Source: Bacteriovoracaceae bacterium (GTDB lineage: Bacteria; Bdellovibrionota; Bacteriovoracia; Bacteriovoracales; Bacteriovoracaceae). Taken from it: a DNA stretch of 64,000 nucleotides. Shown here in pieces: positions 13,052-29,159 of this stretch. The number at the start of each line of letters is the position of its first letter. Within the stretch, counting starts at the first letter, position 1. The stretch lies in contig JADHTQ010000001.1 in the NCBI GenBank assembly GCA_016784965.1, forward strand, positions 1 to 64,000. Reading direction: 5' to 3'. The notes under the pieces were generated by a model that saw nothing but the letters and a program-made list of their open reading frames with translations, had not been told where the DNA came from and ran no database searches. The translations under genes and the position numbers were made by a program.

Positions 13052-16000
13052 TTAATTTATAGTACTCTCTCTGGGTATAGATGAAAATTTCATATGGCCA
13101 CTTGTGGGAAATATAAAAGTAGTTTTCACCTGACTTGTTGCGCTAAACTTATTGACAGACACATTAAACTTGATTTGTAGCTGGCGTTCCTTATGCAGTT
13201 CCCTAATAGTATTTGCAAGAGGTACAAAAGATGCTTTTAACTCATCTTCTTTTATATCATTTAATTTTATAGCAATGAGTTGGCAAACTAGTCCAGAGTC
13301 ATCACCACGAACTAAATCAATTTTAAACTCAGGTACACTCTGCCCCAGCTTTTTTAATTCGTTAATAAACACTAAGCAAAACGATTCAAATGCTTTGAGA
13401 TCATCTAACGAAACTATTTTCTCTCTGGTCAATCGCGTCATCAAACGATTTCCAGAAGCTGGTAGCTCGTCTTTTAAAAGTCCATCAAAATCATCAACAT
13501 ACGAAAATAGAGTTGGCTCAGGTTTAGCTCGATTAATTTTATTGTAATTTTGCTTTAACTGTCTCGACTGCTTTTGTATGACTCCATTTTCTTCTTCATT
13601 CTTGGCCATAGTATTACTTAACTTATCTTGTAAATCATCTACCACTTGTTGTTGTTTTTGTAGTATTTCCTCATTTTTGCTAATCACTTCTTGGTTTTTA
13701 CTGGATTCATCAGAGCTTACCTGCAGCTGTTGTTTTAACTGCTTAATTTTTACATCCATATCAGTAACAGCGTCTTTTTGCTCTTTCATCTTTTTTAAGT
13801 GCTCTAAGTTATTGCTCATTTTATTTTTTACAGTTTCTTCTAGATTTTTCAATTCCTCTTTTTTAGATTCTAACTGTTGATGATTGCCAGTTGTCTTAGT
13901 TTCTAGGGTTTTAAATTTGCTGGATGCCTTAGTGTGTTGATCTGTCAGCTTTGCTATTTTTTGGTTATGATCTGCAAGCAGTCGACTCTGAGCTTCATCG
14001 ACTAGAGTTTTTTCTTTTAGCTTGGCATCTACTGTATTCAACATATAAGTATATTTTTCAATTGATAAACCAAGATCTCTGACTTCTTTATCTTTGATCT
14101 TTATTGAGTCATTTAAAATTGCCAACTCTTGATTCTTTTTAGCGATCAAATTGCACAATTTATATTTAGTATTATTTTGTTCGTTTAAAGCTTTGTTCAT
14201 CCGCCCTATTTCTTTGTTTTTTTCTTTAGCAAAGATAGTTAGCTTTTGATTTTCCTGACCTTTAGAGGCCATCTTCTCTTTATGATCCTGTAGTAACGAT
14301 TTATTTTTATCAAATGATTTTTGTAAAATGTCAGATTCATCTCGAATCTGTGAGTTTAACTTTATTAATAGTTGTAATGCATCTTTGTTTTCTTGAATTT
14401 TTTTCTCTTGCTCTAAAACCTCTAGCTTCTTTTGTTCTACACTCTCGCTTCTTTGCTGATGAAGCATTTCTTGCTCTTGATAGTTTACCTTTTCTAATTC
14501 AATGGCCTCTTCGTTTTTGGCAATAATCAATTTTTGTTCTTCCAGCTGCTCATCCATCATTTTAATTTTATGCGATTTATCAGCAATCTCTGTCTTGTGT
14601 TTATCAATTTTAGCGCGTTGATCTGGAATCAATTCATTATTTTTTTGTATAGCGTCTTCTTTACTTGCAATAGAATCTTTTAACTTAGAAAGTCTTGTTT
14701 GGTATGTATCAATATCAGCTTCTAACTGGGTAATAGTTTCAGATTGTGTTTGTATCGATAGTTGCTGGGATAGGAGTTGGTCTTCACAATCTCTTACTTG
14801 CTTGGTTAATGGTGTCAGTTGATCATTGTACTCATCAATCTGTTGTTTTTGTTCTGTAAGATGATCCCCATTAACTTTTGTTGTTTGATTAAGTTGCTCC
14901 AAAGACTCATAGTTTTTTTGTACCTTTAACTGCAACTCATTTATGATGATTTCTTGATCTTTTTTCGTTTGGATCAAATGCTCAAGGTTGTCAGTTTGCT
15001 GCTTTAGGGTTTCAAGCTGTAAATTAATAGTTTCTTCATGGTCTGCAACCTGCTTTTCTATGGATCTAACTCTCTCATTCTCTGTATAAAATTGATCCTT
15101 TTTTCCATCTAGTTGTTTTTGGTTAGTTTCTACCTTTTGCTTTATGTCACTTAACTTAGAGTTAACTTGTTTCTCTTGCTCAATTAGGTCTTGTAACTTC
15201 TCATCGTATTCATTGAGCAGAGCAACGTTTTTATCAAATTCAATCTGTACCTTTATAGTGTCTTCTTTTTTTTGTGTAATGGTTTCTAAAGTACTCTTTA
15301 ATTTATCTTGGCCAAGCTTTATATTATCGCCCTGCTTTAAGATGCTCTGCCTACACTCTTTTTCCTCTAAACATTGGTCCCTATAAACCATCTCTTGTGC
15401 CAACACTTTAGATTTAAGCGATTCAATTAACTCATCGTTTTCACTAATTGTTTCAAGTTGCTTTTGTATGTAGGTGCTAATTCTTTCTAATCGTTCTTGT
15501 TTATCCTTTTTTTCTTGTTTATAGGATTCAATCTGGGCACGTTGTTTGGGAATCAACTCATTATTTTGTGAAAATGTATCCTCGCTACTTATAATGGAGC
15601 TTTTTAGCTCCGCCAAGTTCTTTTTTTGTATTTCTAGTTTACCTTCAAGCTCCTCAACACCAGTTTTTTGTACTCGAATCAACTGTTGCTGCACTTGTAC
15701 TTGTTTCTCACGCTCAACTATCTCAGATTCCAGTGATGATAGTAGAGTATTATATTTTTCTATGTGTTCTTTTTGTTTGTTGAGCTTGAGCTTTTTTAGT
15801 TCAGTATTAACACTTAATTGTTCTATGGAATTGTTGCACTGTTGAACTTTAGTTTGCAGTTTTCTAATATTATCTTCTTGTTTTCTTTTAATTACTTCTA
15901 GGTTATCAAATTTGCTTTTTTCAACGTCTAACACGGCTACTTGAGAGTTAACAACCTCATCTTGTCGTGAAATTTCAGCCTTTTTTGCTTCAATAATTTT

Positions 16001-17176
16001 TTCTTTTTTGGCTATAATGCTGTCAAATTTCTCAATTTTTGCTTCATTTTTCTCTATGATCCCAGCTTGCAAACTTATTACTGACTCTGCTTGCTTAATG
16101 TTGTGCTCAATTTCCTCTTTACTTCTTTTGCGGTTTAATAATTTTTCGTCATTACTTTTAATACAAGTGCGCAGCTGTGCAATTTGCTCCGCATTGCTAT
16201 CAAACAGATTATTTTGTTCTTGTTCTAACAAAACGACCGACTCTAATTCTTTTACTTGAGCGTCTATAAGGGCCGCCAATCCCTGCATCTGTTTTTTGCT
16301 ATCATTTAAGAGATCTCTGTTTTCTCTAACGATATCGTTTTGCTTTTCTAGGCCCTTTTTTTGTTTAACGTACCGAAACTTCAGGGCGTTATAGTCTTTG
16401 TATAGCCCTTGTAGATCACATATAAGGTTCTTTTTTTCTTTTATTTTGGATAAGAGTAATTTCTTTTGATCTTCAATGGAAGTTAGTTTGCTTGTAATCT
16501 TACGTTTGTAGTATGAAATCTTTTTTTGAATTTGTTTAATGCTTTGGTTTTGCTCATCAATCTTTTTTTGGATATTTTTAAGTTTAATACTCACTTGAGT
16601 TTTGTAAAAACTACTCTTGCTTTTCATCTCCTGACTAAGGGAGCTCACCTTTTTTTCGAGTTCTGCAAGGATTCCCTTTTTTTCACTTAGAATTATTGTG
16701 TGCCTAGAAATATTTGCTTTTATATCTGTTATGCTATTTGTGGTTGTAACAATGTTGTGCTGGAGCGTCATAAGCGTTTTTTGTTGCTTATTAATCAACA
16801 CTTTATTACTTTCAAGGATTTCTAATTGGTCTTTTTGTTTTTTAACATACTTATAAAAAATCCTCTTGTGGCGGCTAACCTTTTTTAAGATACGCTTTAT
16901 TTTCCACTCTTGCATTTTGATTACAAGCTGGTTTTCTTTCATTGATTTTTGTTGGTCGATGTTTTTATCTACACAATCAATTGCATCTAGCTTTAACTTT
17001 TCTATTTGTTGCTTATTATTTCTTTCTTGCTCCTCAATTTCCAGCAATTGTTCCTGCCAGCTAGTGCCCTTATCCGGCCCACTGGTTAATTTAGATATGT
17101 CGTCCTCCTGATAGCGGAGGTCATCTTGTAATCTCTTTTTGCTTTTAACTAACTTATAAATAAGATTATCTATCAT
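13052..17176 (-). CDS. 1374-aa coiled-coil protein with internal duplication
   Basis: No family recognised. Residues ~1-1215 are almost unbroken heptad-type sequence rich in Lys, Glu, Gln and Leu with no membrane segment or signal peptide, so it is probably a long cytoplasmic rod or filament. Two ~200-residue stretches are similar: one around NNELIPKQRAQIE (near residue 546) and one around NNELIPDQRAKID (near 852), about 307 residues apart, implying a duplication. The last ~155 residues (from FSYVDDFDGLLKDE) are globular and mixed alpha/beta, a possible binding head. A perfect TATAAT (17183-17188) lies six bases before the ATG without a ribosome-binding site, so the mRNA may be leaderless. 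SMC proteins were considered, but there is no Walker motif. Confidence 0.85.
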   Translation of the reverse strand: MIDNLIYKLVKSKKRLQDDLRYQEDDISKLTSGPDKGTSWQEQLLEIEEQERNNKQQIEKLKLDAIDCVDKNIDQQKSMKENQLVIKMQEWKIKRILKKVSRHKRIFYKYVKKQKDQLEILESNKVLINKQQKTLMTLQHNIVTTTNSITDIKANISRHTIILSEKKGILAELEKKVSSLSQEMKSKSSFYKTQVSIKLKNIQKKIDEQNQSIKQIQKKISYYKRKITSKLTSIEDQKKLLLSKIKEKKNLICDLQGLYKDYNALKFRYVKQKKGLEKQNDIVRENRDLLNDSKKQMQGLAALIDAQVKELESVVLLEQEQNNLFDSNAEQIAQLRTCIKSNDEKLLNRKRSKEEIEHNIKQAESVISLQAGIIEKNEAKIEKFDSIIAKKEKIIEAKKAEISRQDEVVNSQVAVLDVEKSKFDNLEVIKRKQEDNIRKLQTKVQQCNNSIEQLSVNTELKKLKLNKQKEHIEKYNTLLSSLESEIVEREKQVQVQQQLIRVQKTGVEELEGKLEIQKKNLAELKSSIISSEDTFSQNNELIPKQRAQIESYKQEKKDKQERLERISTYIQKQLETISENDELIESLKSKVLAQEMVYRDQCLEEKECRQSILKQGDNIKLGQDKLKSTLETITQKKEDTIKVQIEFDKNVALLNEYDEKLQDLIEQEKQVNSKLSDIKQKVETNQKQLDGKKDQFYTENERVRSIEKQVADHEETINLQLETLKQQTDNLEHLIQTKKDQEIIINELQLKVQKNYESLEQLNQTTKVNGDHLTEQKQQIDEYNDQLTPLTKQVRDCEDQLLSQQLSIQTQSETITQLEADIDTYQTRLSKLKDSIASKEDAIQKNNELIPDQRAKIDKHKTEIADKSHKIKMMDEQLEEQKLIIAKNEEAIELEKVNYQEQEMLHQQRSESVEQKKLEVLEQEKKIQENKDALQLLIKLNSQIRDESDILQKSFDKNKSLLQDHKEKMASKGQENQKLTIFAKEKNKEIGRMNKALNEQNNTKYKLCNLIAKKNQELAILNDSIKIKDKEVRDLGLSIEKYTYMLNTVDAKLKEKTLVDEAQSRLLADHNQKIAKLTDQHTKASSKFKTLETKTTGNHQQLESKKEELKNLEETVKNKMSNNLEHLKKMKEQKDAVTDMDVKIKQLKQQLQVSSDESSKNQEVISKNEEILQKQQQVVDDLQDKLSNTMAKNEEENGVIQKQSRQLKQNYNKINRAKPEPTLFSYVDDFDGLLKDELPASGNRLMTRLTREKIVSLDDLKAFESFCLVFINELKKLGQSVPEFKIDLVRGDDSGLVCQLIAIKLNDIKEDELKASFVPLANTIRELHKERQLQIKFNVSVNKFSATSQVKTTFIFPTSGHMKFSSIPRESTIN

Positions 17177-18917: not shown

Positions 18918-21900
18918 CTAATCATCTACTCGAGAATCCGCATTTTTTATACATCGGAAACCAGTAAATACTTCGCTATTATCATTTTCAGGTAGCACCT
19001 CTATTGTATACACCCCAGCTGTATTTCCTCCTGAAGTATAACTACCGCCTGTAGTAAAATATCCTACGCCAGTATATTCAATACTGGGGGCAAGATTCCT
19101 TTCGTAAATATTTATAAATCTAACTTGATTACCACTGCCAGTGGCAAGATAAACCACTTCATTGTTTATAACAAGTTGTTGAAAGCTTGCAGGTGGAATT
19201 GTTGTGGACGTCTCCTCAACAGGTACTGTTACATTGCTGACATCAATTGCTGCAATATCATCACCTCCTGCAATTATAACGTAATCACCGTCTTTTGCCA
19301 TATGAACTGGAGCGATAGAAGAGTTCATAGAGCTGTAGAATATCGGCTTATCGGGATCTGTTAGTTCAAAAATTAGAAAATCATCAGTTGTTGCTGAAAC
19401 CGCGTAGATATTAGATGCCTCAACGATTAAATCTCTAAACTCAAAATCTTTACCATTATCTACATCGTTGTAGAATACTCCAACTTGTGGATTGCTAGGA
19501 TCTGAAATATTAAGTGGAACCAAATTATCATCAGTAACAAAATATATGTAATCTCCTAGATAGTCTATTGACTGGATACTTTGAGACGGGGTATAGGTCC
19601 CTCTGGCAGTCATGGCGTTTGGATCAGATATGTCCACTATATGCAACTCTCTAGGATCTTCTTCGCGATAAATATAGGCACTATTTTTAGTGCTATCTAC
19701 AACGACCTTTTCAACTTCGGTAAAGTTTGGGTCATAAGTGTTAATTAAAGATGGCACCATACTGGTGTCTATTCGAATACTTTTCAAACCACCCTCTGTC
19801 GCTGCCAGTATAAGACTAGAAGAATATACATCCACATCATTTATGACATTTCCAAGATCTATTGAGCTTTGGAAAACTACATTTGTATCAGTACCGGTTA
19901 GTTTTGTATTAATAATTATTAAATTTGTATCGTCAGCAGTGACTGCATAATTATTATTGATAGCGGCAATGGTTACTGTGCTGTTTGTTGTTACATAGTT
20001 ACTATCTGAAACTTCTGTGAGCACTACGTTAGAGTCTAGGGTAAGCCCTTTAAGTCTCAGTGCGTTCACTGAAATAATGTCTTCGTGCAATTGTGCAGCA
20101 GTAATACCCAAAACGTCGTCAGCTCCGATTAACTGATAAGTGTAATAGGTGGTGATATCATCGTCACCAGGCAAGCCCAGAGGTGCAAAAAACTTCGTGG
20201 CATCATTGTTTGCAAAGGAAGTATCTGCAAAGGCCCATGTGCCCAACGCAGATCGCTCCTCAGTATCACACCAATCATCAGATCCTTCGCTTCCGTCACT
20301 ATTTAAAATGCTGTCCGCACAAGGTCCAAAGCGACTATCGAAATTGTAAGCGGCACCAGAGTCTAGAGTATCATTAAAAGGAATAGTTGATGCTGAAAGC
20401 ATACATATTTCACCCTCACTACCCGAACAATCAACAGAGTCTTTTGTCCACTCTCGCACATTACCAACAACATCTTGAATTCCATAACGAGAGGTGCACA
20501 TTCTAGTTGCCTTAGAACCAGTGGCCAAAGATCTTATATTGTTAGAAGAAGAGCCAGAAATGGTATCTACATATGCATTGTGCGCAAAATTTATACTATT
20601 AAAAAGCACACCACTGGCTTCATTTGTATTACAACCAGAGACCGTATTTAATGTAGCACCAGTCTCTAGGGTGCTAATTGCAGCATCGTCTAGAGTTGAT
20701 GACCAAGATGAGTAAGCCATTTGCTGTTTTCTAGTGGGTAAGAATTTGCTAGAACACAGGGTATCGGCATCAGAGCGAGAAACCTGAGTTATCGGTGGCA
20801 GAAATGGGGCGTTGCTGGCAAGCCCCGATTCTCCATTAATTGGTTGCCATACATCGTTGGCATCGGCTGCTTTATTGATATAGCACTTCCCGGAACTACG
20901 ACTGTAATAAATTGCATTTTCATCTTCTGAATTTTTAAAATTAATAACTTTAGTAGCTGGATCATTGGGATCATCTACATCTGTTCCGATGCAGCCACCT
21001 GCTTCTCCTCCACCATCAGCATTACAGTAATCCGAGTTTGAGTATTTACATCCTGCCTCGTAGCGATCAACAATTATACTTCTTCCTAAGTCATAATACA
21101 TTTCACTTGTATTACCGGGGCCAATGTACTCACAGCGATAGTTGTTGGAAGAATCTGTCAACTCACCTATTCTTGCACACATATCAATGTTGGCCATCCA
21201 TCTATGTACTAAAGCTTCATTCGCACCAGGCACCTCAACTTTCAAAGTAGTTAAAGCATTATCTACCGTTCCAGTTGCAATTCCATCTATGATTGGTCTT
21301 ACTTGATACGCATAAGTTGTATTTTCTGCAACGTCACTGTCTATGTAACTTCTTGTGTTTGCATCTAACGGCGTGTTATTTAAGGGTTCAGAAAAGTCAC
21401 CCTCCCCGGGAGAGCCAGAGGGTCTTTGCTCAAAGCTCCCCGCAGGAGATATTCTATAAACATTCCAGCCACTAATAGTAGCATTATCTAGTCCCATCTC
21501 ATTCCAAGCAAAGCGTACCTGAGCACTACTATCATCGTTGTAGCCTCTACCATCCTGCGAAGTACTTGGGATGGCCAGTCCTGAGACAGTAAGCAAAGTG
21601 TTGCTGTCAACAACCTCACTGGTCTCAATGGTATAACCATCATCTGGAGGAGTATCATTACCTGTTGAATGAATAACGTGTAATTTGGTCTTGGGAAGAA
21701 ATTTTTCTGTTACATCGCCAGAAAAAGTAAAGGTATTTGCATCTCGATCGGTACCTATTATTCTAAACTGCTCATCTGTTACCGTTGCACCGAGCATGTC
21801 TTGCCTGGGTCCAACAGAGTAGACCTGACTCCATCCGTTGTGTACGAGGTTTAACTGCTCCACGAAGACAGTAAACTCCATCCTGCCCACGTTGGGGTCT

Positions 21901-24900
21901 TCACCGCTGTCTCGTACTTCAACTGTTATTGTAGCCCCACCACTTTGCGCACTTGCCGGCAACAGGTCTATCGTTAGCTCTATATCTGACTCAGTAGTTC
22001 CATCACCGAGACTCTGATATTCTCCATCAAACGATATTTCAGCTGCACCATTTCTATTTGCCTTAATATTTTCTAATGGAAAGAGTGCCTCATCACTAGA
22101 GTATATTTTTACGCTCATTTCCTGGATCTCTTCATCATCTCCCCCACCTTCATCTATTTTTACTTTCAATCCTAGAATTTCGGTGTTCTCGTTAGTTGTC
22201 TGGGTCGCAATATTAGTAATGGTAGGCAGATTATTAAACGGAATAATATTAACATCATAATCCAAACTATCTTCCCAAGTTAATCCCCCATCGTCACTGA
22301 CAGAGATTTTAATGTTAATGTCATTTGCAACGGCAAACGTCTCGGGAATAAAGTTAATTTTTAACTCCGCAGTATTAGCATCACTTTCACCATCCACATT
22401 ATAAAAAACCACAAATGCATTGGGATCATCGTTGATATTAGTGTCACTGCGACTAATTGCATTTTCCCCCCACCTTAACATGACATTTGATAGAGGAACC
22501 GCTTCATCACTGATTTCTACTTTGACAGAAACACCTTGACCGCTTTCATCACCTTCATTTAAATCACCCTCATCTATCCTAAAGATATGTTCGGCCATAG
22601 TCCCTTCATCAATATTAATGTTTGCATCGCTGGTTATTCTAGTGATAGTGGGATCATTATTATCAATTTCGACCCAAAACGTGTGTTGTTGAGCTCTAGA
22701 CCAATCTACATCGTCAGTTAACTCCACAGTAAGCCTAGATGGTCCACCGCGAGAGGCAAGAGCTTTAGTTGCAATATTCACCACTACATTGGCATCATTA
22801 GCATCATCATTTCCGTCAGCTAATGAAAATCCTCCTGTGGGCAAAGCAACAGCTGGTGTGCCATTCCAAGAAAATTTTATATCAGATGAGTCGATCAAGT
22901 TGCTGTCATATTCCACCACTTTAATTTTTAGGTTTTGGTAGTCCTCATTAACTCCTCCACCCTCATCAACTTTTAATAAAAAGTTTGCATCTTGGCCCAT
23001 TGGACGAATTCGTAGCAAATTTGTGTCAGCATCGGCAATTGTAGGTAGATCGTCGTTGGCATCCCAGTTGAGTGCTACACTATAGGTTCTTGAGTTTGGA
23101 TCTCGTCCGTTATCTGTTAACCGGATGGTGCAATCAATGGCCCCCTGATTCGGATCAGTAAATTCACTGTTGGGATCAATATTACTAAAGTCATCATCAG
23201 GGCGCAAAATCCTTATTGCAAATGTCGTTTGATCAGCGCTGTCGTCGCCAGTACTTGTTGTAATTGTATTAACGTCTGCGCCGTCAATTCTGATATCATT
23301 TGCATTGTCAAAAACATGCTCAGGATGTGAGCATCGAGCTTGACAAGTTATACTGGCGGTTACCTCTTGCCAGTCTTCATTGTCTTCTCCACCCTCATCC
23401 ACGACTAAGTTGAAGAGTTGATCGTTACCCTCAGCCACACTGATTTCCTCTAGTACATTTGGATTGGAAGTTAACACGTTTGGGTTAACTATAAAGGGTG
23501 GATCATTGACCGAAATAATATCTATATAAAGCTTTTCACTTTTGGGCGACCAATTAACTCCTCCGTCTCCACTGATCCAAATTTCAAGCTCTAACTGATT
23601 TGGGGATACATCACTTTCAAGTCTGTTATAGCTTGCAGTAATCTCCCCATTTTCTCCCAAACCACCATGAACGAATATTTCACCTGCAGCTGTACCCACA
23701 GATGTCTTAGTCCACTCTTGTGTGTTTAAAACCCTAGTGTTAATTTTGACCTTTAAACTATCATAATTTATAAACTCATCACCTAAGGTTATTTGAGTAG
23801 AAGGTGCATATAAACTCCACCTAATGTTCATAGGACTATCTACAACTGCATCTGGAATATCTTTAAAAACAAGTAAATCTCTGGTTGCTGCATTGAATGA
23901 GGTATACATACCTTCGTCAATACCGTCATCATCTATTGAGACTGCAATACTTCCTACGTCAATATTTTCGCCACTTAAGGTTACAACTTGATTGTCATCT
24001 GAAGCTTGATATGTTGTATCTAAAGTGAGCGTACTGCTTGCATATTGAGTATCCTGGTCATAAACCTCACTGTAACTTGTAAAACTATTAACAGGAGGAG
24101 TAATCGTCAAATAAATTGAATCAGTTGAAGCATCAATGGTTTCTCCCTGCTCACCACCATCATAACCTACAAGAAACACTGTTGGATCAGCTGAATCCCG
24201 TGTAAAGTTTTTAGTGCCCCATTTAGGGGTTACACCATCGATAGGTAAGATATTAGTATCACTAATTATAATCTTGATTGCCAGCGGGGCAGTATCAATA
24301 TCACCAACCATCAGGGTATTTGCATCCACCGAAAATGCATTCGTCTCATAGGCCGTCTCTTCATCAAAAGTAATTCCTAACTCAGGGTAAGAGATTGCAG
24401 GAAAGTCCTTTTTAATTTTCATCCTAAAAGATGTATAAGGTGATGCATCGGCACCTAATATAATTGGTGCATCACCTTCTGCTCCTGGAAGATAGTCTTC
24501 TACAAAAAGCGATAGCGTTACGTAGGGGGGGGTTGGGTATTTATAAGTAACTACCACGTCACCAGTAGATGGAAGCCCTGCATTTAAAGTAACTATGTCG
24601 CCAAGGGGGTAATCTTGTCGACTTAAATTCCAAGAGCCAACATCAATGCTATTTGGTCCAATTGCGACTGAAATACTTGTTTCACTTACATTGTTGTCGG
24701 GTAGCTCAACTTGTATCGGATCAGGTGAACTCGCAGGATAAATTATATCACTATTCCATTGATTTGCATCGTGATAAGTATCATAGAAAACCACGATATT
24801 TCCTGCATCGATAATATCTGAAGCGAGGGTGAGACTGTCGGGACTATTTGTTGAGTTTAAAGTCCACTGCGCAGGAGGTACATAGACATTTCCGTCCATA

Positions 24901-27900
24901 TAAACAGCTAAAGAGTCGCTAATGACATCATCATGAAATAAGGCCACAGCGACATCATTTGACTCTATGTTATAATTAATAAGTATCTGGTTACCCTCTA
25001 GCAGTGGATCTATACTAGGATCTACGGTCACCTCAAAAGTATCATTATCTAGCTGAAAGTTGGCGTCGTAAGATGTGCCTCCAATGGTCATACTCATGTC
25101 ATCTATCTTATCTTCACCCGTTGTACATTCACCTGAGGCAAGACAGCTCAAATCAAAACTAACCCCAGCATTTAAATATCCCCCGTGATCCTCTGCGGTT
25201 ACAGGACGTTGACCACGATAAGCCGTATTGGTATTTTGATTTAAGGTAGTGGTATGAATTACATCATAGTCTAGAGTGACATCTCCTCTGTTTGGTCCCT
25301 TTAAGGTCAGGGTATCGGGGCCAGGAGACCTGACATCAGTAAACTCCCATTGATTGGCATCAACTGTAACACCATCTACTTTTAGAACGATTGACTCTTT
25401 GTGAATGTGATCATGGGGGAGCTCTAATATATAATCTAGAGAGTTTGCTCGATACTCAACAAATATGTCTTCATTGATATACCCCACTCCTATACCGCTG
25501 TTTATAGTTATTGTATTGGGAGTACTTAGTGAGTAGCTGCCTGGATCAATTGTTTCATTTTTAATTTTTACCTCAATGATTCTTTCTACGAAGTCAGCAC
25601 TTATAGTATAGTTTGTGTTGTTACCGTTATCGTACAAAAAGAAGCGTTCAGTAACGTTGACATCCCCCCTATAGAAAATTTCTGGATCATAATCTTCCAC
25701 ACGGGTAATCGTTTTTGACAATTCACCATCAGTGTCGGGTGCCACCTTTAGTGACAAGCTTTGTGAGTTTGCATCATAATTGGTGTCGCCAATAATAAAA
25801 ATATTGCGGTCTACATCACCAGCATACCTAAACAATTCATTTTGCCCCCAACTAAGTGTGATATCGCTGTTTTGAACCCTATCAGGTATACTACTTCTAA
25901 CCGCAACATATAACATTTGATTATTTTCATCGACTCCTCCTCCCTCATCAACTTGAAAGAGGTAGTTGTCTAACAATTCACCGCCTTGGATGGTCATATC
26001 TACATCATTTACATCTTGCATATTTACAATGGTTGCAAGGTCTTCATTTGGATCCCATGAAATAATGACATTTCTAATTACTTCAACTGTCGACCCACCG
26101 TCTTCACTTAGCCCCACACTAAGTTCGATGGCGCCATTATATCCAACCTCTTGTTTTGGGGTTACAGTGACAAGGACGTTTAAGTCATCATCGCTTTGTC
26201 CTGCCGTCGTGGTAAGAGTAAACTTATTATCGAGACGGGTGAAATCATTACTATCAACCATAATGATATCGTTGCTATTATGATCCACAACACCAGTATC
26301 CGATGAAACGAATACGATTGTAATTTCTTGATTGTTTTCTTCAATATCTGTGGCTCCCCCACCTTCATCCACAATTAAATTGAAGCTTATAGATTCCCCC
26401 TCGACCAAAGTCTGACCATCTACAGGGTATCTATCATTTGGCTCTGCCGATACAAACACCGGATCATCATCGACAGCAATGATCTCAATGTTGACTACAT
26501 CATTGGCCTTCCAGTAGTCACCTGCTGCCCTGTAACCATCTTCATCACTCACATCTACGTTAAGAGGAATTGTACTGCCGCTGGTGTGAAAATTTTCAGT
26601 GGGCAAGATATTTAACAGCAGCGGATAACTTGCAGCATTGTTGTCCATGTCGGCAACTGTAAAAATTTTGGCCCAAGTCCTCCCTGCTGCAAGACAGGCT
26701 GCAGAGGTAGTGTCGCTGAGATTTTCAACACACTCACCGGTGGTCCAGGTATAAGGAGCGGTACAGTCTTCTTGACGAGAGAAGGCGCTGTTACTGCAAG
26801 CCCCAACAGTTAACACTTCCCCAAATCTCCACGTAGCTACTATATCGTTATAATCAATAATATTTTGATCACCACTATAAACTCTAACAACAAGTGTCTG
26901 GTTATCCTCAGGAATACCTCCGCCTTCATCAATATTAAAAGATAGACCAGCTATAATTCCGTCTTCTTGAATGCTAACCGTAGCGTCATTTGCATCTATG
27001 CTCGGTGGAGATTCAACAGGTGTCCATGTTACAAAGAAGTTATCTACAATCGTATATGCTCCCCTAAAGTCATCAAGGGATACGGTGTAGCTTAAAGTGC
27101 CATTGTATCCAACATAGGGTGGACTTATTGCAACACTTATATTCTGAGTATGTGCGCTAGCATTTACAGCTTCTGTTGTAGTATAAATATTATTTCCGTC
27201 TTGAAGACTAATGCCGACAGCTGCGTCTCCTGAATAGTTAGACGTAATTTTTACTTTCACATATTGATAGTCTTCGTCGCTTCCCCCCCCCTCATCGACA
27301 TTAATCGAAAAGTTGACATTTTCATCCTCTTCTACAGTGGCATCTGCAACTGCAGCTACTAGAGTTGGTACATCATCAACTTTATTAATCGTGACAAAAA
27401 ATGAAGTATTGGGATCTTCAGTGGACGGGTTGCCGGCAGTATCACTATCTCGAACATAAACATCTAATTTAATTGCACCGGTATTTTGAGTATGAACATC
27501 TTCATCTGGTCGTATATTAATTTTCATCAAGTTGATCAGTGAATTAACTGTGCCGTCTGGTAAATTACAAGTGAAAGTATTTGCGGTCGCAGAGGGTGAT
27601 ACACAAGGTGAGTCCTTCCAGAGAATAGATATATCGCTTCCTCTAATAATATTCTGATTATTGCTTACTACCAGAATTTTCATTGACTGATAATACTCAC
27701 TAGATCCTCCTCCCTCACTTGTCACCATATTGTGAGTAAGAGTTGTGCCTTCGGCCATTGTCTCAAACTCACTTCCTTGGTAATTTAGTACATACGGAGG
27801 GTCGTTAAACTCACTTACGGTCAACTCGAATGACTCAGTTGTTTCCCATGTAAAGGAATCGTCGTCATTACTGGCCTTTATCGAAATTGTAACTGGTCCA

Positions 27901-29159
27901 TCAATAGTTGTTACATGCTCTGCCGCGGTTGGAATTGTTAGATAAATTATATCAAGGCCCGAATCGGCATTGCCGTCGTTTAATGAAAATATACCATTTT
28001 GCGAGGTTATGGAACCGGTACTACTTGTAGCGGTTATTTTTGATACATCTATGATATTGCTGTCACTGCTATCAATGGTAAATTGAATGTTCTTGGCATT
28101 ATCATAGGCACTTCCACCTTCATCAATAATAATCGAAAGCAGATGATTTGTGTCCTCAACCATTGTTTGAGCTGGTACGGCTTCACCACCTGGTGCAGTG
28201 ATTACCGGTGGATCAATTACTGGTGTAACTATTAAGTCAAAAGAGGTCGAACTCTGCCAGTTTGAGCCGCCAGTATCGCTAACATCAATAAATATTTTAA
28301 TTGGAGTAACCGATCCGTCTAAATTTGTGGTATGTGCATTAGCAGTAGGAATCACTCTAACTTTAAGTGGATATAATTGGGCACCTTGGGTCCCTTTTGG
28401 TATCTCATATACTCCTGGAGACCTGGTAGTTAGTGCACGTGAATTCCAAAAACCTCTGATACTGTTAAGTGGCGCTAGCGATAAATTGGAGCTTCTAAAT
28501 TTAACAAAAATCCGATCACTATCTTCATATGATCCTCCCCCCTCATCAATAGTAGCGTCATGGTAAGCCAAAGAGGTATCTTCATCAATAGTCTCTGTGC
28601 TTGTGGTTGTATTGACTGCAGTTGGCACATCATTCACCCTACGCCAAGTTACTTTAAAATCCTGATATGTCGGATATGTGGCACCACCTTCATTGCTTAG
28701 TTCTACCTTGAAGGTTGCGACACCATTAAAATCCCTATCGCGATCTGGCAGAATTAATACCTCAGTATTCGCCATAAAATCAGCACTTACTCCAACCGGA
28801 TCCTCTGTTGTATAGGTATTTCGTTTTACGCCATTGATATATACATCAAGGTTTTCATCAACAACATTTGGGTTTTGGGATGTAATTCTAATAGTTACGT
28901 TTTTATCGTCCTGAGTAACCCCACCACCTTCATCAACGGCAAGATCTAAAGCAACACTTTCACCTTCTGAAAGAACCTGGTCTAATATGTAGTTTCTAAT
29001 TACTGGATCTGAGGGACCAATTTTTTCTTTGTAGTACTCTTCAGGAGTTAGAGAATCTTCATCATTAGTGTCACCTTCATTTAAACTAACAGGTGGCAAG
29101 CACCCCCATAGCAGGAAGTGAAAAAGAAATGAAATAAGGACATAATAATTTTTAACCAT
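18918..29159 (-). CDS. Giant repeat lipoprotein with FGE-like and propeller domains
   Basis: Protein of 3413 aa with a lipobox (FLLWGC, Cys20) followed by Leu, so probably outer-membrane and surface-exposed. Residues ~60-2350 carry about 12 copies of a module around 110-190 aa long, each with a D-E-G-G-G motif followed by an acidic (E/D)D-x-Q segment, for example FSINVDEGGGSDEDYQ; these look like Ig/cadherin-type strands with acidic, possibly Ca-binding loops. Between ~1180 and 1840 a second, ~50-residue repeat type alternates (V-x-V-x-G ... W ... G-x-V-x-Y). A fibronectin-III-like segment follows (~2440-2640), then an FGE-sulfatase-like domain from ~2650 (QDVVGNVREWT near 2903). LVIVD-type propeller repeats occupy ~3050-3355, and the final GFRCIK strand closes the FGE fold. 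An adhesion role is inferred. Confidence 0.88.
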   Translation of the reverse strand: MVKNYYVLISFLFHFLLWGCLPPVSLNEGDTNDEDSLTPEEYYKEKIGPSDPVIRNYILDQVLSEGESVALDLAVDEGGGVTQDDKNVTIRITSQNPNVVDENLDVYINGVKRNTYTTEDPVGVSADFMANTEVLILPDRDRDFNGVATFKVELSNEGGATYPTYQDFKVTWRRVNDVPTAVNTTTSTETIDEDTSLAYHDATIDEGGGSYEDSDRIFVKFRSSNLSLAPLNSIRGFWNSRALTTRSPGVYEIPKGTQGAQLYPLKVRVIPTANAHTTNLDGSVTPIKIFIDVSDTGGSNWQSSTSFDLIVTPVIDPPVITAPGGEAVPAQTMVEDTNHLLSIIIDEGGSAYDNAKNIQFTIDSSDSNIIDVSKITATSSTGSITSQNGIFSLNDGNADSGLDIIYLTIPTAAEHVTTIDGPVTISIKASNDDDSFTWETTESFELTVSEFNDPPYVLNYQGSEFETMAEGTTLTHNMVTSEGGGSSEYYQSMKILVVSNNQNIIRGSDISILWKDSPCVSPSATANTFTCNLPDGTVNSLINLMKINIRPDEDVHTQNTGAIKLDVYVRDSDTAGNPSTEDPNTSFFVTINKVDDVPTLVAAVADATVEEDENVNFSINVDEGGGSDEDYQYVKVKITSNYSGDAAVGISLQDGNNIYTTTEAVNASAHTQNISVAISPPYVGYNGTLSYTVSLDDFRGAYTIVDNFFVTWTPVESPPSIDANDATVSIQEDGIIAGLSFNIDEGGGIPEDNQTLVVRVYSGDQNIIDYNDIVATWRFGEVLTVGACSNSAFSRQEDCTAPYTWTTGECVENLSDTTSAACLAAGRTWAKIFTVADMDNNAASYPLLLNILPTENFHTSGSTIPLNVDVSDEDGYRAAGDYWKANDVVNIEIIAVDDDPVFVSAEPNDRYPVDGQTLVEGESISFNLIVDEGGGATDIEENNQEITIVFVSSDTGVVDHNSNDIIMVDSNDFTRLDNKFTLTTTAGQSDDDLNVLVTVTPKQEVGYNGAIELSVGLSEDGGSTVEVIRNVIISWDPNEDLATIVNMQDVNDVDMTIQGGELLDNYLFQVDEGGGVDENNQMLYVAVRSSIPDRVQNSDITLSWGQNELFRYAGDVDRNIFIIGDTNYDANSQSLSLKVAPDTDGELSKTITRVEDYDPEIFYRGDVNVTERFFLYDNGNNTNYTISADFVERIIEVKIKNETIDPGSYSLSTPNTITINSGIGVGYINEDIFVEYRANSLDYILELPHDHIHKESIVLKVDGVTVDANQWEFTDVRSPGPDTLTLKGPNRGDVTLDYDVIHTTTLNQNTNTAYRGQRPVTAEDHGGYLNAGVSFDLSCLASGECTTGEDKIDDMSMTIGGTSYDANFQLDNDTFEVTVDPSIDPLLEGNQILINYNIESNDVAVALFHDDVISDSLAVYMDGNVYVPPAQWTLNSTNSPDSLTLASDIIDAGNIVVFYDTYHDANQWNSDIIYPASSPDPIQVELPDNNVSETSISVAIGPNSIDVGSWNLSRQDYPLGDIVTLNAGLPSTGDVVVTYKYPTPPYVTLSLFVEDYLPGAEGDAPIILGADASPYTSFRMKIKKDFPAISYPELGITFDEETAYETNAFSVDANTLMVGDIDTAPLAIKIIISDTNILPIDGVTPKWGTKNFTRDSADPTVFLVGYDGGEQGETIDASTDSIYLTITPPVNSFTSYSEVYDQDTQYASSTLTLDTTYQASDDNQVVTLSGENIDVGSIAVSIDDDGIDEGMYTSFNAATRDLLVFKDIPDAVVDSPMNIRWSLYAPSTQITLGDEFINYDSLKVKINTRVLNTQEWTKTSVGTAAGEIFVHGGLGENGEITASYNRLESDVSPNQLELEIWISGDGGVNWSPKSEKLYIDIISVNDPPFIVNPNVLTSNPNVLEEISVAEGNDQLFNLVVDEGGEDNEDWQEVTASITCQARCSHPEHVFDNANDIRIDGADVNTITTSTGDDSADQTTFAIRILRPDDDFSNIDPNSEFTDPNQGAIDCTIRLTDNGRDPNSRTYSVALNWDANDDLPTIADADTNLLRIRPMGQDANFLLKVDEGGGVNEDYQNLKIKVVEYDSNLIDSSDIKFSWNGTPAVALPTGGFSLADGNDDANDANVVVNIATKALASRGGPSRLTVELTDDVDWSRAQQHTFWVEIDNNDPTITRITSDANINIDEGTMAEHIFRIDEGDLNEGDESGQGVSVKVEISDEAVPLSNVMLRWGENAISRSDTNINDDPNAFVVFYNVDGESDANTAELKINFIPETFAVANDINIKISVSDDGGLTWEDSLDYDVNIIPFNNLPTITNIATQTTNENTEILGLKVKIDEGGGDDEEIQEMSVKIYSSDEALFPLENIKANRNGAAEISFDGEYQSLGDGTTESDIELTIDLLPASAQSGGATITVEVRDSGEDPNVGRMEFTVFVEQLNLVHNGWSQVYSVGPRQDMLGATVTDEQFRIIGTDRDANTFTFSGDVTEKFLPKTKLHVIHSTGNDTPPDDGYTIETSEVVDSNTLLTVSGLAIPSTSQDGRGYNDDSSAQVRFAWNEMGLDNATISGWNVYRISPAGSFEQRPSGSPGEGDFSEPLNNTPLDANTRSYIDSDVAENTTYAYQVRPIIDGIATGTVDNALTTLKVEVPGANEALVHRWMANIDMCARIGELTDSSNNYRCEYIGPGNTSEMYYDLGRSIIVDRYEAGCKYSNSDYCNADGGGEAGGCIGTDVDDPNDPATKVINFKNSEDENAIYYSRSSGKCYINKAADANDVWQPINGESGLASNAPFLPPITQVSRSDADTLCSSKFLPTRKQQMAYSSWSSTLDDAAISTLETGATLNTVSGCNTNEASGVLFNSINFAHNAYVDTISGSSSNNIRSLATGSKATRMCTSRYGIQDVVGNVREWTKDSVDCSGSEGEICMLSASTIPFNDTLDSGAAYNFDSRFGPCADSILNSDGSEGSDDWCDTEERSALGTWAFADTSFANNDATKFFAPLGLPGDDDITTYYTYQLIGADDVLGITAAQLHEDIISVNALRLKGLTLDSNVVLTEVSDSNYVTTNSTVTIAAINNNYAVTADDTNLIIINTKLTGTDTNVVFQSSIDLGNVINDVDVYSSSLILAATEGGLKSIRIDTSMVPSLINTYDPNFTEVEKVVVDSTKNSAYIYREEDPRELHIVDISDPNAMTARGTYTPSQSIQSIDYLGDYIYFVTDDNLVPLNISDPSNPQVGVFYNDVDNGKDFEFRDLIVEASNIYAVSATTDDFLIFELTDPDKPIFYSSMNSSIAPVHMAKDGDYVIIAGGDDIAAIDVSNVTVPVEETSTTIPPASFQQLVINNEVVYLATGSGNQVRFINIYERNLAPSIEYTGVGYFTTGGSYTSGGNTAGVYTIEVLPENDNSEVFTGFRCIKNADSRVDD

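Follow-up and report, generated by a model that had tools for sequence, protein, structure and literature searches.

Several bacterial proteins adopt the fold of the formylglycine-generating enzyme (FGE), a subtype of the C-type-lectin fold, for purposes other than catalysis. PorK, GldK and GldJ of the type IX secretion system of Bacteroidota are lipoproteins with a non-enzymatic FGE-like fold in which insertions give rise to new functions; PorK lacks the catalytic cysteines, serves as a docking hub, and carries its inserts at helical regions, for ring assembly (PMC12421860). The variable proteins of DGR systems (TaqVP, TvpA and Mtd) possess a C-terminal, ligand-binding FGE-subtype C-type-lectin fold, which in TaqVP contains a 31-residue 'insert 3' between strands β2 and β3 (PMC6328139). 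In Bdellovibrio bacteriovorus the trimeric, phage-like MAT fibres have exchangeable C-terminal adhesive tips, and the tip of Bd2740 shows a C-type lectin fold (PMC10769870).

The window analysed here, a stretch of 64,000 nucleotides from a Bacteriovoracaceae bacterium, encodes a protein that combines features of these systems. Like PorK, GldK and GldJ, it appears to be a lipoprotein with a non-enzymatic FGE-like fold that has been modified by insertion, and like the DGR variable proteins it would carry this FGE-subtype C-type-lectin fold at its C-terminus. Unlike the inserts of PorK, its insert is a probable LVIVD-type propeller of ~330 residues, located before the last strands of the domain, and the domain itself ends a stalk of 12–13 Ig-like modules. 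In length this insert exceeds insert 3 of TaqVP about tenfold, and a DGR-type reverse transcriptase was not found in the genome, which is estimated to be 97% complete. The repeat family of the insert is also that of LVIVD-repeat lipoproteins from the same bacterial family (e.g., L092 and L088), but these are stand-alone proteins or long arrays, with no FGE-like core in the stretches fetched. The protein also differs from the MAT fibres, being a lipoprotein built of Ig modules that ends in an FGE-subtype domain.

The gene occupies positions 18918–29159 of the minus strand, to which all coordinates below refer, as one intact open reading frame with an ATG start, encoding 3413 residues. It lies in a draft genome of 126 contigs, and its immediate neighbours encode a deaminase-like protein and components of RND efflux. 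The N-terminal 20 residues (29100–29159; MVKNYYVLISFLFHFLLWGC) form a signal peptide with a lipobox, read from the translation, and Cys20 is the predicted lipid anchor. The lipobox noted in a preliminary description of this DNA is plausible on inspection (...HFLLWGC20), with an unusual tryptophan at position −2. A lipobox-like N-terminus was found in 46 of 63 relatives, using a loose pattern which let in a few matches that were too internal and missed two paralogs, L013 and L014, in which the motif is visible by eye. A further open reading frame at 13052–17176, on the same strand, encodes a Lys/Glu/Gln-rich, coiled-coil-like protein of 1374 residues with no Pfam match.

Most of the protein is taken up by repeated modules marked by a DEGG(G)-type block. 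Modules 1–8 (25683–29045; residues 39–1159) have these blocks at residues 75, 205, 346, 481, 621, 744, 930 and 1070, and modules 9–12 (21876–23540; residues 1874–2428) at residues 1920, 2064, 2196 and 2336. Each module is recognised by a profile of the other eleven, with E-values from 1.5e-12 to 3.3e-25, and the twelve are therefore mutually homologous, as the preliminary description had proposed; the opposite outcome, unrelated blocks, was not observed. A degenerate thirteenth module, lacking the DEGGG motif, is present at 24087–24503 (residues 1553–1691), where a profile of ten modules matches at approximately residues 1620–1691 (E 6e-5). Module 6 harbours a Cys-rich insert, behind which it continues in a fragment at residues 831–876 that is also marked by the twelve-module profile; module 8 lacks its last strand at this place. 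A short Cys-rich segment (C...C...W...C; residues 788–822, 26694–26798) recurs inside modules, and is found in L013 as well. Comparison of the DEGGG modules with solved structures gave no convincing match.

The second, ~50-residue repeat of the preliminary description was recovered as seven copies of about 50–75 residues between modules 8 and 9, six of which were significant in leave-one-out searches, the exception being r3. Copies r1–r5 of this ~55-residue repeat lie within residues 1180–1548 and make up a first block (24504–25682; between residues 1160 and 1552), and r6–r7 lie within residues 1708–1847 of a second (23619–24086; residues 1692–1847). Strands resembling the ends of other modules come behind each block, and for this reason the first block, as judged from the sequence, appears to interrupt module 8, and the second the degenerate module. 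The DEGGG-module profile gives 1–4 matches in most module-bearing relatives, and 8, 9 or 13 matches in the three proteins with a propeller, the window protein and two of its paralogs. A long stalk is thus found in the same genes as the propeller.

Behind the modules follows a stretch at about residues 2440–2639 (21243–21842) that was recognised by eye as FnIII-like, but had no match in Pfam. In L013, a 2505-residue open reading frame (G000:C78), the FnIII-like stretch is interrupted at residues 1335–1473 by a different, non-LVIVD propeller-like stretch with weak matches to PorZ_N, PSII_BNR and Reg_prop.

The FGE/C-type-lectin-like domain is divided over two parts. Its N-terminal part (20067–21242; residues 2640–3031) contains the signature GNVREW and ends with LHEDIISVN; its C-terminal strands (18921–19070; residues 3364–3413) comprise YFTTGGSYTSGGNTAGVYTIE...GFRC. 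A profile of relatives without a propeller matches residues 2640–3030 with an E-value of 5e-91, and the GGSY-strand profile scores 26.7 bits at residues 3364–3390. GNVREWT starts at residue 2899 and GFRC at residue 3400, in agreement with the previously noted positions (near 2903 and ~3400). The match to the Pfam family FGE-sulfatase (PF03781) has an E-value of 0.013 for the whole protein and 0.0013 for the C-terminal domain, the latter scoring 18.9 bits, which is below the curated cut-off of 23.3. The window protein therefore falls outside curated membership, but relatives do match PF03781 (15 of 21 aligned members at E≤0.1, the best at 9e-9), and the profile of relatives matches SUMF1 and PorK/GldK in the PDB collinearly, with GNV.EW followed by GGS...GFRC. 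PorK is its best match among solved structures. A phmmer search of the PDB with the C-terminal domain of the window protein alone gave no match. Because the relatives score better, and SUMF1 and PorK match in the same order, the domain is likely homologous to the FGE-sulfatase family, as a divergent relative.

The segment between the two parts of the domain (19071–20066; residues 3032–3363) is probably a seven-bladed LVIVD propeller. The LVIVD family of Pfam (PF08309) is matched above its cut-off, with E-values of 3.5e-5 for the whole protein and 2.7e-7 for the C-terminal domain; on the latter, one stretch passes, and the score is 30.3 bits, compared with a cut-off of 20.2. In a genome-wide LVIVD search, above-cut-off matches were found only in the two paralogs, the stretches in the window gene remaining below the cut-off. 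Among the 21 aligned members the three propeller proteins are the only ones to match LVIVD. With a profile built from 69 LVIVD blades of relatives, the window insert reaches 20.0 bits (E 7e-8), where the maximum of 1000 shuffles is 10.1, and L013 and L014 reach 148 and 90 bits, respectively. This profile yields six partial matches on the window insert, and seven blade-like repeats can be discerned by eye from about residue 3054, which suggests seven blades closing as one propeller. A profile of the 14 blades of the paralogs reaches 5.8 bits on the window insert, no better than shuffles (maximum 7.7). As this profile misses the window copy, the propeller of the window protein must be strongly diverged, and its blade count rests on the eye. 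Very long LVIVD arrays are present at G150:C13 and G017:C28, in open frames of 1551 to 3817 residues.

Whether the propeller lies within the domain was judged by comparison with relatives in which the site is empty. A profile was made from propeller-less relatives; in each relative, the LHxDxxxxN block with which this profile ends was located, and, separately, the GGSY strand. From the end of the core to the GGSY strand there are 334 residues in the window protein and 324 and 340 in L013 and L014, in contrast to 7–41 in the remaining relatives with a scored strand. The single outlier, L072 (124 residues), has a core match that ends 64 positions early and a strand score of 6 bits; by motif its LHxD-to-GGSY distance is 21 residues. 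Some distant relatives gave no strand match and are uninformative for the spacing. These profiles are exploratory, in that anchors and thresholds were picked after viewing the sequences, but the contrast in spacing is independent of them. In a search of the phylum with a separate profile (alignment A4), many proteins align unbroken over positions 1–456, whereas the match in the three propeller proteins extends only to positions 405–407, and in all three the TGGSY...GFRC ending follows behind the propeller, as it ends the relatives. Because the alignment of empty-site relatives passes through the site without a break, the sequence comparison supports a real insertion of propeller type that separates the FGE signature from the final FGE strands, as the preliminary description had suspected.

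Other inserts were observed at two sites of the domain, site A before the GGSY strand and site B behind it, ahead of the GFRC strand. In L097 (G071:C13) the A4 match ends at position 400, at the same site A, where a different, Ala-rich and probably helical insert of roughly 150 residues is present. Inserts at site B, from about 100 to over 500 residues long and several of them alike, are carried by L015, L018, L020, L022, L024, L026, L029, L032, L033 and L038.

Structure prediction by AlphaFold of residues 2640–3413 resulted in a model with a pLDDT of 36; the alignment contained 34 rows without the propeller paralogs, and the part of the core rows behind GNVxEW was misplaced on the tail. For L041, a relative whose site is empty, the domain was modelled from 42 well-aligned rows, with a pLDDT of 82.2 and a pTM of 0.86. 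In this model the insertion site corresponds to a short loop between a helix (residues 424–428) and a strand (residues 435–441), from which strands continue up to GFRC, and the model thus supports that the final strands belong to the domain in the empty-site relative. A Foldseek search of the PDB with the L041 model identified TaqVP, a DGR variable protein with C-type-lectin fold, as the best match (probability 0.97, E 1e-3), followed by weaker FGE and C-type-lectin matches; the TM-scores are low (0.28–0.34). The best matches among viral structures were a SUMF-like phage protein and a tail fibre. The order of the motifs would place the propeller at the insert 3 position (β2–β3) of the DGR variable proteins.

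Of 59 near genomes, 32 have a match to the C-terminal domain, and of 369 genomes of Bdellovibrionota, 103 do. When about 85,000 species genomes were scanned, 52 loci were obtained; their labels fit Bdellovibrionota, with the exception of a MAG named as Epsilonproteobacteria and a record named simply 'bacterium'. The FGE-like domain is widespread in the phylum; the propeller is lineage-specific and no general feature of the family. The genome of the window holds three further copies of the domain, two of which (L013 and L014) have a similar insert at the same place, and one of which (L015) has no propeller. The core tree joins L013 with L014 (support 96/93), the window protein is near but outside this pair, and L015 falls among propeller-less relatives. 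The AU test does not reject a single group of the three propeller proteins (p-AU 0.21), which is consistent with a single gain followed by duplication; as the best tree separates the three, two gains are possible. No relatives were found in a plasmid search, nor in scans of viral contigs for which an LVIVD lipoprotein was used as query in addition to the domain and the propeller.

We consider it rather likely that the window gene encodes a lipid-anchored stalk with a lectin-like tip in which an LVIVD propeller has been inserted, acting as a binding or docking head. Its product would belong to a family of Bdellovibrionota proteins with an N-terminal lipid anchor, in which Ig/cadherin-like modules form a stalk that, together with an FnIII-like linker, presents the C-terminal tip. 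The tip would be a non-enzymatic FGE-subtype C-type-lectin-like domain that serves as a scaffold, and the LVIVD propeller, now carried by three genes of this genome, would have entered the loop directly before the last strands of the domain. The composite tip would then most likely act as the binding or docking head, with the propeller as a second binding face. This reading builds on what was directly computed, namely the insertion as compared with relatives whose site is empty, the LVIVD nature of the insert, the paralogs and the missing catalytic cysteines. Lipobox, C-terminal position and structural neighbours are consistent with the tip of a surface adhesin; surface exposure is likewise inferred, and contact with prey or other cells is a speculative extension.

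Other readings of the same data have to be weighed against this one. The Pfam name FGE-sulfatase could point to an active enzyme, either a formylglycine-generating (sulfatase-modifying) one or a related one of the FGE superfamily. In SUMF1 the active-site cysteines follow the GGS motif. Upon alignment to SUMF1 the window protein shows GGSYTSGGNTAGVY at the position of the active-site pair, without a cysteine, and the aligned relatives likewise have no cysteine at these positions; enzymatic function was rejected for this reason and is very improbable. Membership of a DGR was also rejected: the genome has only two RVT_1 matches, both with the QGGxxSP motif of group II introns, and diversification by a DGR is unlikely. 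With neither FGE catalytic cysteines nor a DGR-type reverse transcriptase, a non-enzymatic binding or docking tip is the most likely function. That the tip works as a docking hub for partners in an envelope machine, as PorK/GldK, rather than as an adhesive head, is an explanation to which we assign a minor but appreciable chance. The lipoprotein PorK has an FGE fold that is non-enzymatic and bears functional insertions (PMC12421860), and no other solved structure matches the relatives' profile better; the window domain, however, sits at the C-terminus of a long stalk and not beside the anchor, and the immediate neighbours named above, the only genes checked for PorK-like partners, are of other kinds.

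The insertion itself could be disputed on two grounds. The lectin-like domain might be complete before residue ~3050, with the propeller as the next domain and GFRCIK as an unrelated tail, an arrangement that the window domain's own model, at its pLDDT of 36, could not exclude. It is nevertheless improbable: the empty-site relatives have their TGGSY...GFRC block 7–41 residues behind the LHxD block, SUMF1 and PorK share both blocks in the same order, and the block recurs behind the propeller in every one of the three propeller proteins. A domain ending before 3050 does not fit this comparison. An assembly artefact, conceivable in a 126-contig draft, has hardly any probability, as the same topology occurs in three intact open reading frames with diverged sequences on three different contigs.

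With an adhesive or docking tip as the preferred reading, the mosaic fibres with a C-type-lectin tip in Bdellovibrio (PMC10769870) make adhesion plausible by analogy. More tentatively, and with somewhat less than even expectation, the tip may be a family-wide 'plug-board', in which a dead FGE/C-type-lectin scaffold accepts unrelated domains at a few fixed sites (A and B) and recognition is diversified without a DGR.

The locus provides a natural before-and-after case of a propeller entering a C-type-lectin-like domain, in which both states of the site, empty and filled, can be compared among relatives and among the paralogs of one genome. A search of the open-access literature yielded no description of propellers inserted in such a fold, or of the family, and the results point to a widespread family of FGE-tipped lipoproteins in more than a quarter of the Bdellovibrionota genomes searched. 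If these domains are true surface heads, they would add to the MAT fibres as candidate means by which predatory bacteria recognise prey or partners.
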